Shown here: positions 5,190 through 20,450 of the stretch, piece by piece
Layout: every line of letters starts with the position of its first letter
Numbering within the stretch: the first letter of the stretch is position 1
IMG/VR virus record: IMGVR_UViG_3300014819_000021
Coordinates: 1 to 28,371 of that record
Direction: 5' to 3' (one strand)
Source: a virus
DNA: 28,371 nt
Notes under the pieces: model-generated
Database searches by the model: none
Seen by the model: only the letters and a program-made list of their open reading frames with translations
What the model was told of the DNA's origin: nothing
Made by a program: the position numbers and the translations under genes

Positions 5190-5906
5190 ATGTGGAAGAT
5201 ATATAAATTACATACATCTACTGATGAAACTGCAAAGTATATAGGTATTACTAAAGGTACATTATCTAGAAGAAAAAGACAACATATGTATGATCTTAGA
5301 TCAGCATTAAATGGGCAAATGTCTTCTAAAACTAAATGGATGTTAGAAGTACTTTCTAATTCTGAAGAAATAGTAATTACAGAATTATTTACATTTGATA
5401 ATATTAATGATGCTCAACTTAAAGAAGTAGAGTTGATTAATAGTTTACCAGATTTAACTAATTCTAAAATGTATAAAACACATATTACTGAATGGACAGA
5501 AGAAGATAAATCTAAGTTTCAAACTAATGCAATAAAAGTATACCAGTTTTCTAAAGATGGTATTTTTATTAAAGAATGGGTTGGAGCTAAAGAAGTAGAA
5601 AGATATACTGGATATTGTCATAGTGCAATTAGTAGATGTTGTAAAGGTATATACAGAAGCTATAAAGGTTTTTATTGGAGTTATAGTTTAAATATAGATC
5701 ATTTACTAAAACCATTTAGTCATCATAATTGTAAAATGGTTATTGTAGAAAATATTTATAATACAATTACTCATTCTTTTAATTCAGTAGGGGAAGCTGC
5801 AGCTTTTTGCAAAGTAAGTAATAGTACTATAAAATCAGCAGCTAAAGGAACTATTAAAATAGTTAATAAACAATTTAAAATTAAATATTATGAACCAGAA
5901 AAGTAA
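5190..5906 (+). CDS. GIY-YIG homing endonuclease with NUMOD-type DNA-binding repeats, 238 aa
   Basis: The N-terminal domain has the GIY-YIG pattern: KIY at residues 3-5, YIG at 17-19, a basic helix with conserved arginines (LSRRKRQH), then the expected glutamate helix (KEVELINSL) and DLTN. Residues about 115-170 form a NUMOD1-like module (KVYQFSKDGIFIKEW, then HSAISRCCKGIYRSYKGFYW), and a second similar helix-turn-helix region follows (SVGEAAAFCKVSNSTIKSAA). This is the architecture of free-standing mobile nucleases that cut intron-less target sites and spread by repair. Its last codons overlap the next gene by 17 bases, and it is flanked by an 18-bp repeat, so it looks like an insertion. Confidence 0.9.
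   Translation: MWKIYKLHTSTDETAKYIGITKGTLSRRKRQHMYDLRSALNGQMSSKTKWMLEVLSNSEEIVITELFTFDNINDAQLKEVELINSLPDLTNSKMYKTHITEWTEEDKSKFQTNAIKVYQFSKDGIFIKEWVGAKEVERYTGYCHSAISRCCKGIYRSYKGFYWSYSLNIDHLLKPFSHHNCKMVIVENIYNTITHSFNSVGEAAAFCKVSNSTIKSAAKGTIKIVNKQFKIKYYEPEK
5875..5892 (+). repeat. Downstream copy of the 18-bp direct repeat
   Basis: Identical to 5131-5148. Here the repeat encodes part of the endonuclease C-terminus in one frame and supplies the leader and ATG of the gene at 5890 in another. The endonuclease insertion therefore preserves translation of its neighbour. Confidence 0.7.
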
Positions 5907-8861: not shown

Positions 8862-9199
8862 TGGCAATCAACAAAGTAGATTTAACAGTTAGTGAATTAA
8901 TTAATGACCTTAATCAAGGTTATACATGGCTTAAGAAAGATGACTTAGGTTATGGATCTATAGAAGTAAAGTATGGTGCTAATCCTAATCAGATAGCAGC
9001 TATTAGAAAACATCCAGCTCTTAAAGATGCTGAGACTAGTATTACAATCTTTAATATTATAGATGATACACAAGTATCCACCAAACAACCAACAGTTACC
9101 AAACCAAATACAACTGTGGAACAACCAGTCGTATCTATGGTCAGTGAGAGAGCAACAGTGGATTCTACTGAAGCAGCCGACATCTTTGCAAACCTCTAA
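8861..9199 (+). CDS. Hypothetical protein, 112 aa
   Basis: I chose the ATG in the TAATG overlap with the glycosylase stop; a TTG six bases earlier is also in frame. The N-terminal 70 residues look folded (LTVSELINDLNQGYTWLKKD, SIEVKYGANPNQIAAI), while residues 70-105 are rich in Thr, Val, Pro and Gln (QPTVTKPNTTVEQPVV), a probable flexible linker, ending in a short helix (EAADIFANL). That ending may be a docking peptide, since its neighbours are an AAA+ ATPase and its VWA partner; this is inference. No family is recognised. Confidence 0.7.
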   Translation: MAINKVDLTVSELINDLNQGYTWLKKDDLGYGSIEVKYGANPNQIAAIRKHPALKDAETSITIFNIIDDTQVSTKQPTVTKPNTTVEQPVVSMVSERATVDSTEAADIFANL

Positions 9200-9206
9200 T
9201 ACAAAT

Positions 9207-10763
9207 ATGGCAACAAGACCTAGTCCAACAGAAAGTGCTACATTATATCATGTAGGTTATAGAAAAAAAGGTAATGATGGTAGAATGTGGAAAATTACAG
9301 CCAATAGTGCAGGTGTCCAAAGATGGGTACCTGATAGTGGTAGTATTCCATCTATATATACAACACCAACTCCAACATATAAGTTTAAAGTTGGAGATGA
9401 AGTAAAAATAGTTCAATCTGGTACAGGATGTGCTCCAGAAGAAATAGGTTTAGAAGTAATCATTACAGAATTAGGACTATATAGTGATGGACCTGGATAT
9501 AAACTATATCAGCAAGTAGGAAATAGTAAACAATATCCTAATGGAGGATATCATGCATATGAAGGATTCATAGGAGAAGATTCATTTGAATTAGTAGAAC
9601 AACAAATAATTAAACAACAACCAAAACCCCTTAAAATGGCAAAGTCAACAAAGACCATTACAAAGAAGACTACTCAAGAGGTACGTCAAATTGAAACTTC
9701 CTTGATTAATAAGGAAGAAGTATTTAAGATGCTAGCATTAGCAGAAGCTACAGGATTACCATTATTATTAGTAGGTGAGCCAGGTGTAGCAAAGACTAAA
9801 ACTATTATAGAATATGCTAAAGCATGGTTGAACAAAGATGGTAAGATGACAGCTGAAGACTTTCAGAACAAAATGTACATCTTAGAGACTGATGAGGGTA
9901 CTAAAGCATCAGAGATTAAAGGTATGCCTGACTTAGGTAAATTATTTACAGAAAACAAATATGAACTTAATGCTCCTGTAGCAGAAGCTGATATTGTTAT
10001 CATCAATGAGGTAGACAAAGCTAGTAGTGCTATTAGAAATGCTATGTTGGGTGTTATGAACGAGAAGTTCTTGTTCAATGGTAAATCTAAGGTTCCTTGT
10101 AAATGGAAATTATTCATTGCAACTTGTAATGAAATTCCTAAGGATGAAGTAGATTCTCCATTCTGGGATAGATTTATGTTGAAAATGACTGTAAACAGAG
10201 TTAGTGCAGGTGATATGTCTAAGTATTATGCAAAGGGTGCACGTAATTACAAAGAAAGCTTCAAGATTGGTATTCCTAATCAAGCTGAATTGGATACAGT
10301 GGAAATCCCAAGCAGTAAGCTTGACAAGTATTTAGAAGTGGGTTATCAACATAGTTCAGATCGTACATTAACTTTTGTACCAAAGCTTGCTAAAGCTGTA
10401 AGTTATGTATGGGATATTAGTGTAGATAAGGCTCTTGTAAAGACAGCACAGATTATGATTTCTCAAACAGCTGGTTCTGAATTACAGAATAAGTTGATGA
10501 GTCCAGAAATCAAAGCTGTAATGAGCAAGGTGGAGATGTTACATTCTCATAGTAATAATGAAGCTCTTGAGTTAGCAGTAGCTGAGATTGAGAGTTTGAT
10601 TAATGCATATGCTAGTAGAGGTGTAATGGATAATGGTCAAGTGGAAGAGATAGAAACTTCTATGCAGTATATTCTACAGAACCATCCAGCTCGTGCTGAC
10701 TACCAAACATCAGAAGACTTTGATCAAATGTTAGATGGTGTAGCTGATAGCAACCCTTTCTAG
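9207..10763 (+). CDS. MoxR-type AAA+ ATPase with an N-terminal extension, 518 aa
   Basis: The start is the ATG at 9207 (context ACAAAT); an earlier in-frame ATG at 9063 would run through the previous gene. Residues 1-45 carry a short motif module (LYHVGYRKKGNDGRMWKI, VQRW), and about 55-135 a KOW/SH3-like stretch (FKVGDEVKIV). A second Met at residue 144 (9636) begins the ATPase: Walker A GEPGVAKTK near 190, Walker B IVIINEVDKAS near 262, sensor 1 FIATCNE near 305. MoxR ATPases act with VWA-domain proteins as remodelling machines or chelatase-like pairs, and a VWA gene follows directly. The stop TAG is immediately preceded by a CCCTTTC slippery sequence. Confidence 0.88.
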   Translation: MATRPSPTESATLYHVGYRKKGNDGRMWKITANSAGVQRWVPDSGSIPSIYTTPTPTYKFKVGDEVKIVQSGTGCAPEEIGLEVIITELGLYSDGPGYKLYQQVGNSKQYPNGGYHAYEGFIGEDSFELVEQQIIKQQPKPLKMAKSTKTITKKTTQEVRQIETSLINKEEVFKMLALAEATGLPLLLVGEPGVAKTKTIIEYAKAWLNKDGKMTAEDFQNKMYILETDEGTKASEIKGMPDLGKLFTENKYELNAPVAEADIVIINEVDKASSAIRNAMLGVMNEKFLFNGKSKVPCKWKLFIATCNEIPKDEVDSPFWDRFMLKMTVNRVSAGDMSKYYAKGARNYKESFKIGIPNQAELDTVEIPSSKLDKYLEVGYQHSSDRTLTFVPKLAKAVSYVWDISVDKALVKTAQIMISQTAGSELQNKLMSPEIKAVMSKVEMLHSHSNNEALELAVAEIESLINAYASRGVMDNGQVEEIETSMQYILQNHPARADYQTSEDFDQMLDGVADSNPF

Positions 10764-10879
10764 GAAAAGATTTTCTTAAGCCAGTGAACCCAGGGGGATT
10801 TACTCTCCCTGGTGTTTCATTAGAAGATCTTGTAAAACAGGCTAATGAACAAATTAAAAACAAACAAGATGGCAAGTAA
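10751..10879 (+). CDS. Candidate -1 frame extension of the MoxR ATPase (39 codons)
   Basis: The frame one base behind the ATPase is open from 10751 to TAA at 10877-10879. It would add 39 residues after Phe518: LGKDFLKPVNPGGFTLPGVS, then a helix LEDLVKQANEQIKNKQDGK. It fills the 105-base gap before the VWA start and overlaps it by 11 bases, as genes here usually do. The composition looks like ordinary coding sequence and there is no ATG in the frame; a GTG at 10784 is the only obvious independent start. It may be reached by programmed -1 frameshifting, by an indel relative to relatives, or translated separately. Confidence 0.45.
   Translation, partial: QPFLGKDFLKPVNPGGFTLPGVSLEDLVKQANEQIKNKQDGK
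10754..10812 (+). promoter_or_regulatory. Possible -1 ribosomal frameshift site: slippery heptamer plus hairpin
   Basis: C CCT TTC (10754-10760) in the ATPase frame is an exact X XXY YYZ heptamer, and the stop TAG follows it directly. CCAGGG (10790-10795) and CCCTGG (10807-10812) form a 6-bp GC-rich stem with an 11-base loop 29 bases downstream. That is farther than the usual 5-9 bases, so the stimulator is uncertain; a nearby weak GAAA/TTTC hairpin at about 10764-10775 is another option. Confidence 0.4.
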
Positions 10880-12380
10880 AAGCTACAAGAATGTATATAC
10901 CATTCTAGAAAAAGTAAAGAAGGGTGAAATAGAAACCCATTATAAAGACAAAGAAGGATTGTTTGGAAAGATTAACTTTTATAAGAAACCAGATCTTATC
11001 AAACCATACATGCATTATATAGATGAATGGAGGCTTGAGAATATTATGGATACTCATATGAGAGATAATAGAACAGTACAAGAAAACTTTAATAAGTTTG
11101 CTAAGACCACTGACTTTAAAAAGATAGATCCAAAACAACAACCTGATCAGTCAGCATTTTATAATAAGTTTCAAGAAAACTATAGAAAGTTTCCTAAACA
11201 TATGGCTAAAGACATCTTCAAGATGTATTATAACCAAATAAATAAGCTAGATTTTGAAGAGAGGGATGAGAAGAACCATACTAAGTTTAAGTTCTTAGAA
11301 AGAGCTAATAATCCTGTAGGTAAGATTATGTCTGAACATAGCAATCTAAAGTCTGCTATATATGCACGTAATATGCTTAGTTATTTTATTACACGTATGA
11401 CCATTATGGATTATATAGATCCAAAAGCATCTGAAGATATTAAAAATGGACTAAACGGTCAGTCTGATTTTGATAATCAAGGTACTGATAAAGCTATGGA
11501 GCAAATGATGGATAGTAAACAGGGTAAAAGTATGTTAGATGATGCTATGCAGAAAGCTCAAGAACTTTGTAAACAGATGGATGAAGCTATGGATGATGAT
11601 GTTCAAGAACAAATGTTTGAGAATGCTAATAAACCAGAAGGTGAAGGAGGAATGGCAGGTAAACTTAGTCCAGATTTTCTTAGACAAATAGCAGCTAAAC
11701 TTGAGAGGGTTAATCTTTCTATGGGAAGTCTTAAAGAAAAGATTAAGAAACTACTAGATAAGTCTGTAAGTTATTTTAGTGCAAATGAAAAGACTGAGTA
11801 TGAAGATTTGTTTAATAGTGATAATATAGCTGGATTAGAAGATTATGAACTATTACATCCTAAACTTAGAAAAATCTTTGCAGAAGATTTGCAAGTGAAG
11901 AGTACTAAGAAAGTGGGTAAGATAGATCTCTATATAGATGTATCAGGATCTATGTCTTCCAATTGTGGTGTACAAAATAGCAATGGTGATACTATAAGCA
12001 AAATAGATTTTTGTAAAGCATTTGCTGCCAAACTAAAAGGCATGGATATGCTTAATGAAATCTATACATTTGATAATAGAGTGAAGCATCGTAAGAACGA
12101 CATCATATCTATATCTATGTTAGATTGTGGTGGTGGCACTACCATTGATAATGCTATACAAAGCATAGAAAAGAATGGTGTTAATGCATTAGTAATCACT
12201 GATGCTGAAGATAGCTGTTCTATTTATTCTGATAAAGCATTTTTCATTGGTGTAGAGGGAGCTAGATTCAATTACTTCAATGAGAATATCATCAAAGAAT
12301 ATGCTACTAAAGGTCAGGCTGTAGTATTTAATGGTGAAGCTATATACAAAGTGGATGAAAATGGTGAGATAGTTAAATAA
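10869..12380 (+). CDS. VWA-domain protein, MoxR partner (CobT-like), 503 aa
   Basis: The C-terminal domain is a von Willebrand A fold: MIDAS motif LYIDVSGSMSS near residue 357, threonine in CGGGTTID near residue 420, and LVITDAEDS. These residues bind a metal ion and ligand. The first 300 residues are helical and charged, with a methionine- and glutamine-rich middle (EQMMDSKQGKSMLDDAMQKA). Such proteins work with MoxR ATPases, as the gene just upstream suggests; phage pairs are often called CobS/CobT although a role in cobalamin is not implied. I chose the ATG at 10869 (MASKSYKN); one at 10845 would add eight residues. A strong terminator follows. Confidence 0.85.
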   Translation: MASKSYKNVYTILEKVKKGEIETHYKDKEGLFGKINFYKKPDLIKPYMHYIDEWRLENIMDTHMRDNRTVQENFNKFAKTTDFKKIDPKQQPDQSAFYNKFQENYRKFPKHMAKDIFKMYYNQINKLDFEERDEKNHTKFKFLERANNPVGKIMSEHSNLKSAIYARNMLSYFITRMTIMDYIDPKASEDIKNGLNGQSDFDNQGTDKAMEQMMDSKQGKSMLDDAMQKAQELCKQMDEAMDDDVQEQMFENANKPEGEGGMAGKLSPDFLRQIAAKLERVNLSMGSLKEKIKKLLDKSVSYFSANEKTEYEDLFNSDNIAGLEDYELLHPKLRKIFAEDLQVKSTKKVGKIDLYIDVSGSMSSNCGVQNSNGDTISKIDFCKAFAAKLKGMDMLNEIYTFDNRVKHRKNDIISISMLDCGGGTTIDNAIQSIEKNGVNALVITDAEDSCSIYSDKAFFIGVEGARFNYFNENIIKEYATKGQAVVFNGEAIYKVDENGEIVK

Positions 12381-12384
12381 AATT

Positions 12385-12417
12385 AGGGCCCTATATAGTG
12401 TAGGGCCCTTTATTTTT
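12385..12417 (+). terminator. Bidirectional intrinsic terminator
   Basis: AGGGCCCTA (12385-12393) and TAGGGCCCT (12401-12409) form a perfect 9-bp stem with a seven-base loop, followed by TTATTTTTG. On the other strand the hairpin is followed by an AT-rich T stretch too. It lies between the convergent ends of the plus-strand VWA gene and the minus-strand lysis/tail block, so it probably stops transcription both ways. Confidence 0.85.
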
Positions 12418-19779: not shown

Positions 19780-20397
19780 ATGTTCAAAACAGAAGGACAA
19801 GATGTGAAGGGAGGAGGATTAGGAAAATCCTTTGAACCCGGAGTAGTTCTAGCACACATTCACAGTGCTCAAGTAAGAACTGCCAAAACAGGTAAAAAAT
19901 CTTTAGAGCTTACTCTAGAAGGTCCTGCAATTCCTAACTTTGAAGGTTGGGCTATTGACAGAGAAGACCCAGAAGGTGAAAAGTATAAAGGTCAATCAGC
20001 ACGAGTTAGTGCAAGTATTTACATTGCTGACTTTAATAGTGACGATGTAAATAAAAATGAAATTCTTAGCAAAATAATTATCATTGCTAATGAATTAGGA
20101 CTTAGAAAAGAAATTGATAACCTATCTAAAGATGCAAACATTACATCCATTGAGCAGTGGGTAGAAAAAGCTGTAAACATCTTGAAAGGTAATGATCTTT
20201 ATTGGTTCCTAGCAGGTAAAGAAGATGAGTATAATGGAAAAGTAATTGTAAGATTGTCTCTTCCTAAATACAAATTCTGTTCTGCTGATGAAACCAAAAT
20301 GAATAAGTTTGATAAAACTAATAAGTATCATTTCACTCCACTAGCATCTAAATCAGTTAGTGGTTTTGAACCAGTGAATGATGATTTTAATATTTAA
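19780..20397 (+). CDS. Single-stranded DNA-binding-like protein, 205 aa
   Basis: The N-terminal glycine-rich stretch is followed by a beta-rich domain (SAQVRTAKTGKKSLELTLEG, then GQSARVSASIYIADF) that looks like an OB fold, and the protein ends in an acidic tip (EPVNDDFNI). An acidic C-terminal tail is the hallmark by which SSB proteins recruit partners. Its place just after the Sak4-like ATPase supports this, because such pairs recur in phages. The family name is not certain; it could also be a recombination mediator. A strong terminator follows the gene. Confidence 0.65.
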   Translation: MFKTEGQDVKGGGLGKSFEPGVVLAHIHSAQVRTAKTGKKSLELTLEGPAIPNFEGWAIDREDPEGEKYKGQSARVSASIYIADFNSDDVNKNEILSKIIIIANELGLRKEIDNLSKDANITSIEQWVEKAVNILKGNDLYWFLAGKEDEYNGKVIVRLSLPKYKFCSADETKMNKFDKTNKYHFTPLASKSVSGFEPVNDDFNI

Positions 20398-20419
20398 TTT
20401 TCAGTTTTAGTTTTAGATA

Positions 20420-20450
20420 GGGGGATGTTTCTACATTCCCCTTTATTTTT
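20420..20450 (+). terminator. Intrinsic terminator after the SSB-like gene
   Basis: GGGGGATG (20420-20427) and CATTCCCC (20434-20441) form an 8-bp stem with one G-U pair and a six-base loop, followed by TTTATTTTTG. It ends the DnaB-Sak4-SSB transcript. The tail TATTTTTG also fits the Bacteroidota -7 box, so a promoter for the primase could overlap it. Confidence 0.8.

Follow-up and report, generated by a model that had tools for sequence, protein, structure and literature searches.

Putative programmed −1 ribosomal frameshifting at the 3′ end of a phage MoxR-type ATPase gene

The ATPase gene end and its genome setting

In an uncultured virus, the gene for a MoxR-type AAA+ ATPase ends in frame 0 with AAC CCT TTC TAG, as read from the sequence, and the −1 frame remains open from this point into the gene for a VWA-domain protein. 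The locus therefore raises the question of whether a fraction of ribosomes enters the −1 frame and produces a second, C-terminally extended ATPase, as an earlier note on this DNA had suggested. The window analyzed here is the whole stretch of 28,371 nucleotides, taken from a 40.8-kb source record (IMG/VR IMGVR_UViG_3300014819_000021); features of the locus are collected in Table 1. The joint conservation of site and tail in relatives, described below, strongly supports this reading, and we consider it likely (probability of about 0.85, judged from sequence comparison) that the ATPase gene carries a site for programmed −1 ribosomal frameshifting at its 3′ end.

Table 1. Features of the ATPase-VWA locus, in window coordinates
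Feature	Position	Strand	Basis
MoxR-type AAA+ ATPase ORF, 566 aa	9063..10763	+	Pfam bpMoxR PF20030 E 8e-25; AAA_5
Slippery heptamer C_CCT_TTC (X_XXY_YYZ)	10754..10760	+	sequence; CCCTTTN kept in 31/74 distinct relatives
Frame-0 stop TAG right behind the heptamer; proposed slip pause	10761..10763	+	sequence; TAG over-represented at heptamer loci
−1 frame tail, 39 codons plus TAA	10760..10879	+	translation; type A tail aligned in relatives
Conserved hairpin within the tail coding sequence	10783..10821	+	core stem 10790-10798/10804-10812; covariation
VWA-domain partner gene, 503 aa, ATG 10869	10869..12380	+	AlphaFold model; structural match; conserved N-terminus
Intrinsic-terminator-like hairpin with T-run, 3′ of the VWA gene	12385..12415	+	sequence; best hairpin −19.4 kcal/mol, TTTATTTTT on 3′ side

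The 40.8-kb record encodes phage replication genes (B-family DNA polymerase, DnaB-type helicase, uracil-DNA glycosylase, primase, and a Sak4-like annealing protein), along with a GIY-YIG-like endonuclease with NUMOD1 at 5190-5906 of the window that is probably a homing endonuclease. Searches of annotated phages returned just short matches of 31 to 39% identity and no match at the DNA level, a scan of host genome contigs found no relative, and an Rfam search of the window gave no match. Shine-Dalgarno sequences are absent before most window genes and leaders are A-rich, which suggests a host among the Bacteroidota and speaks against a Shine-Dalgarno-like stimulator of frameshifting.

The ATPase scored 87.6 bits against the bpMoxR profile PF20030 (cut-off 27), with the match limited to the MoxR domain, and contains the conserved Walker A and B motifs PGVAKTKT and IINEVD. 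RavA is its closest solved relative by sequence (profile versus PDB, E 4e-9); against the RavA equivalog NF010054 (NCBIfam) it reached 48.8 bits, below the cut-off of 681. The conserved core runs from about an internal Met at 9636. Nearly all relatives carry a variable N-terminal extension on the ATPase ORF (9063-9660 in the window), followed by this conserved Met with the core directly after it. The Met (window ATG 9636, MAKSTKTITKKT) was found in 58 of 61 relatives, and the ATPases of L040 and L048 begin at its position; a dual start possibly yields long and short ATPase forms. The partner protein has a helical N-terminal part and, in the AlphaFold model, a VWA domain at residues ~348-493 with the motif DVSGSMS. 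Residues 348-493 matched the VWA domain 4fx5 (Z 11.9, rmsd 2.5 over 127; VIA-align), and D357, S359, and S361 of the MIDAS-like DxSxS are invariant. A conserved N-terminus backs ATG 10869 as the start of the VWA gene.

An X_XXY_YYZ heptamer thus stands in frame 0 at the junction of the two frames. The earlier note had correctly placed it directly before TAG, and was equally right about the 39 open codons in the −1 frame, which ends 11 bases into the VWA gene (ATG 10869 to TAA 10877-10879). Read from CTA at 10760, the −1 frame gives LGKDFLKPVNPGGFTLPGVSLEDLVKQANEQIKNKQDGK. The closest upstream stop in this frame lies 13 bases before TAG, so the tail can be entered only via the heptamer or through a start codon within the tail itself. 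Stop-codon readthrough was rejected as a route, as the frame after TAG yields seven codons, EKIFLSQ, and then TGA.

Slip site and tail among relatives

The comparison set comprised 74 distinct, deduplicated ATPase 3′ ends from viral contigs among the matches listed, and these relatives are not independent of one another. CCCTTTN directly precedes TAA or TAG in 31 of the 74, and a −1 tail of 27 to 53 codons is found in 30 of those 31. Where the heptamer is missing, the tail is mostly missing as well (34 of 43 ends; Fisher p = 1e-11 for the association, with the tree ignored). The comparison with relatives that the earlier note had proposed therefore found heptamer, stop, and −1 frame retained together. 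The pairing of CCCTTTN with a stop is unique to the ATPase gene in a set of 651 distinct ORF ends. The openness of one tail is unremarkable (P = 0.083, dinucleotide shuffle), and the product of such shuffles over seven unlike tail types was 1.4e-9. The 1337 tail codons contain no stop, a zero that follows from how a tail was defined; the two remaining forward frames have 110 and 133.

Several comparisons separate the nucleotides from the peptide that they encode. Among 44 relatives that end in the same peptide, PF*, tails are present in 31 of 33 with CCT and in none of 11 with CCA or CCG; L003-L006, very close relatives with a 93% identical ATPase, have CCG or CCA and no tail. In tailed loci, the codon before CCT TTN is AAC (19), ATC (5), CTC (5), AAT (2), or AGC (1). 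The residue before Pro thus varies (Asn, Ile, Leu, Ser), yet 30 of the 32 tailed CCT TTN loci have C as the third base of this codon; in background codon use, C-ending codons make up 12% overall and CTC 5% of Leu. In L079, TTG (Leu) replaces the Phe codon and CCCTTT is still kept. Together, the CCT preference under the same PF*, the C-ending prior codon, and L079 indicate selection on the nucleotides beyond the peptide. The stop codon is also biased, with TAG over-represented at heptamer loci (17/31 versus 71/468 ORFs; p 1e-6, tree ignored).

Mapped on the ATPase tree, the heptamer requires ~16 changes, and so does the tail. Nine independent pairs on supported branches were compared for the two characters; they changed in the same direction in five to six and never in opposite directions, and the remaining pairs showed no difference. 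The corresponding sign test, underpowered at 9 pairs, gave a median p of 0.06. Counting against the frameshift reading, the slip sequence is weaker in nine relatives that have a tail (A_GCT_TTT, T_TCT_TTC, T_CCT_TTC, and similar).

A separate small gene, with its own start or with reinitiation after TAG, would also place a product in the −1 frame, and an ATG or GTG does lie nine codons into type A tails, while the upstream −1 stop is merely 10 to 64 bases before TAG across loci. However, 20 of the 31 heptamer loci have no ATG, GTG, or TTG between that stop and tail codon 10, and a separate gene leaves both the conservation of CCCTTT and its joint loss with the tail unexplained; we regard this explanation as very unlikely.

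The −1 tail could likewise be a decayed or mis-sequenced in-frame extension, produced by an indel or an assembly error, and a few relatives do look decayed. L332 keeps the heptamer and has a 10-codon remnant of a tail that still begins LNQDFLP. In L019/L020 the heptamer is lost (TCCTTAC) and the tail is broken by a frame change. In L013/L014 an intact type B tail lies in the +1 rather than the −1 frame, after ACT TTT TAA A, an arrangement that may stem from decay or from a change of the shift to +1 (or −2). Against such an origin, the same −1 arrangement occurs at the same heptamer in 30 loci from many assemblies. Among the relatives examined, none has the tail fused to the ATPase in frame 0, which argues against an indel or sequencing error, and we rate that explanation as highly improbable.

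Transcriptional slippage would yield an identical product. Such slippage requires long homopolymer runs. The T-run of the site is just a few bases long, and the conserved C of CCC is explained by re-pairing of tRNA and not by slippage of the polymerase; this route appears scarcely credible. With an own start, an in-frame fusion, readthrough, and polymerase slippage all disfavored, ribosomal −1 slippage remains.

Under the frameshift reading, most ribosomes would stop at TAG and release the short ATPase, while a fraction would shift on the heptamer, exchanging CCT_TTC for CCC_TTT, and add the 39-residue C-terminal tail. In nearly all tailed loci the stop lies directly behind the heptamer, so that a slip is possible with CCT-TTY translocated and TAR in the A site. 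Most simply, then, the slip would be post-translocational, with the stop codon waiting in the A site, and slow termination at the adjacent stop may supply the pause.

The downstream hairpin and the tails

The earlier note had pointed to a GC-rich hairpin downstream of the stop, adding that 29 bases is far for a stimulator. The hairpin itself is real and conserved: its 9-bp core stem lies ~29 bases after the stop, and comparison of six type A relatives shows three pairs in which both bases have changed. A role as stimulator was not supported, since the hairpin occurs without a tail and at a very variable distance from the site. In tailed relatives the hairpin starts 19 to 82 bases after the stop and ends 35 bases (median) before the VWA start, and almost every relative, tailed or tail-less, has a strong hairpin in the gap. 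No stem was conserved at the usual 5- to 9-base spacing. The hairpin's position follows the VWA gene rather than the slip site, so it is probably not a stimulator of the classical kind. Frameshifting at dnaX relies on a Shine-Dalgarno-like sequence that acts as an upstream stimulator and on a hairpin nearby; neither was seen at the phage MoxR site.

In tail-less relatives the hairpin is usually nearer the stop and is followed by more T (4.2 versus 2.5 T in eight bases; p 9e-5), and it resembles an intrinsic terminator. Terminator-like hairpins with the loop TGTTTCTACA, or one close to it, were observed after position 20397 of the window (20398-20440) and in the ATPase-VWA gap of the tail-less L003, L005, and L077.

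At least seven tail types can be distinguished, which for the most part track the ATPase tree and have in common only an initial Lxx[GD]; types A, B, D, and F also have a segment resembling [ST][LI]x[ED]Lxx(L)L near the tail end. The ATPase core is ~82% identical among relatives, whereas the frameshifted tails diversify. Within types, tail residues are conserved. A type C tail was predicted to form a sheet of four strands (mean pLDDT 84), and a search of this model against the PDB returned nothing below E 0.1. In profile searches of six-frame locus translations for the tail as a module of other proteins, ATPase tails alone were matched. A type C DNA pattern had 47 matches in viral contigs, of which those outside the ATPase gene were dismissed as chance. 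Pooled by type, tail pN/pS was 0.57 to 0.92 (0.89 for the window's type, 0.18 in one pair), values that have to be read with the embedded hairpin in mind, as it also limits synonymous change. Selection on the tail peptide thus seems visible and moderate, not strong.

It is reasonably probable that the tail is a small functional module that the ATPase uses in working with the neighboring VWA protein, although a single shared peptide function is less obvious for seven types that share little beyond Lxx[GD]. The tail might bind the VWA protein, as the earlier note had envisaged for its terminal helix, and the two ATPase forms might be made in a fixed ratio. Additionally or instead, shifting ribosomes may traverse the intercistronic hairpin, stop at the VWA start, and couple the two genes, which we regard as possible with lower confidence. 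In its strict form, this explanation accepts the frameshift as real and makes coupling its selected role, so that shifted ribosomes would melt the hairpin, terminate at the VWA start, and set VWA output, with the tail sequence largely incidental. It accounts for the position of the tail stop, which falls beyond the hairpin in every one of the first 35 tailed loci compared and, with one exception, within 25 bases of the VWA ATG, and for a tail extent that is kept while sequences differ widely between clades. A precedent is found in Shigella, where slippage in spa13 reaches into spa32 and has an effect on it (reviewed in PMC5009743). However, the hairpin and an intact VWA gene are kept in tail-less relatives that have no such coupling, tail residues are conserved within types, type C is predicted to fold, and the end of a −1 ORF would probably fall close to the following gene in any case. 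Coupling as the sole selected role is therefore doubtful. A role as a peptide module seems more likely for the tail than coupling, and both can be true.

A broader and quite speculative reading combines the two. The slip site would be a conserved port by which a minority of the subunits in a MoxR ring that is strongly conserved elsewhere receive interchangeable C-terminal modules, helical or beta-sheet and of at least seven types, with the stop as the pause. Shifting ribosomes would also be led through the conserved hairpin to the start of the VWA gene, and a single event would then set the composition of the ring as well as the dose of its partner.

Known frameshift systems and MoxR-VWA pairs

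Among the closest known systems is dnaX tau/gamma, in which a −1 frameshift in an AAA+ clamp loader gene gives two forms of one subunit (PMC5009743). Both cases would produce an AAA+ ATPase subunit in two forms; the dnaX shift yields the shorter form and the phage MoxR shift the longer one, and the genes are not orthologous. Frameshifting in an AAA+/VWA context is known from chlD of magnesium or cobalt chelatase, where small and medium subunits are produced from one gene (PMC9227772, PMC5009743). The chlD sites differ in being of A_AAA_AAR type or AT-rich and in having downstream structure, and their shift joins large gene parts, whereas the phage MoxR tail spans 27 to 53 codons and the VWA protein retains its own start.

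The slip sequence itself has a tested counterpart in the −1 site for West Nile virus NS1′, C_CCU_UUU, of which a natural variant, U_CCU_UUU, is also functional (PMC11507841). The former corresponds to the heptamer of the CCCTTTT relatives and the latter to the site of the tailed L052. Virus and protein are unrelated, and the West Nile virus site needs a pseudoknot at close spacing; at the phage MoxR site, the stop lies directly behind the heptamer and close structure is not conserved. In lambda, the G/GT tail-assembly chaperone likewise arises by a −1 shift near the end of a phage gene, giving a minority extended product (PMC5009743), with different genes, role, and slippery site.

No published description of frameshifting in a phage MoxR gene was found in the open-access literature. 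The kind of event, −1 programmed frameshifting, is known; the gene appears new for it and the arrangement unusual, namely, a stop-abutting heptamer, no close stimulator, exchangeable tails, and repeated joint loss. Phage MoxR ATPases would be a new family among the few DNA-virus genes known to have conserved programmed frameshifting. The ~16 slip-site and tail changes on the tree provide a natural experiment, and the pairing of a conserved core with diversifying tails would allow a direct test of what a C-terminal extension does in an AAA+/VWA machine. In every relative, such tails would escape usual gene calling.

MoxR ATPases adjoining VWA genes have been described in jumbo phages and Acidianus two-tailed virus, where the pairs are proposed to act as virion-assembly chaperones, in passages that make no mention of frameshifting (PMC7824862). 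The jumbo-phage VWA protein has an N-terminal metallopeptidase, for which the window's VWA protein gave no Pfam match. Over its whole length, the best Foldseek matches of the window's VWA protein were TROVE/Ro60 proteins, which combine a helical part with a VWA domain (E 1e-4, TM only ~0.2).
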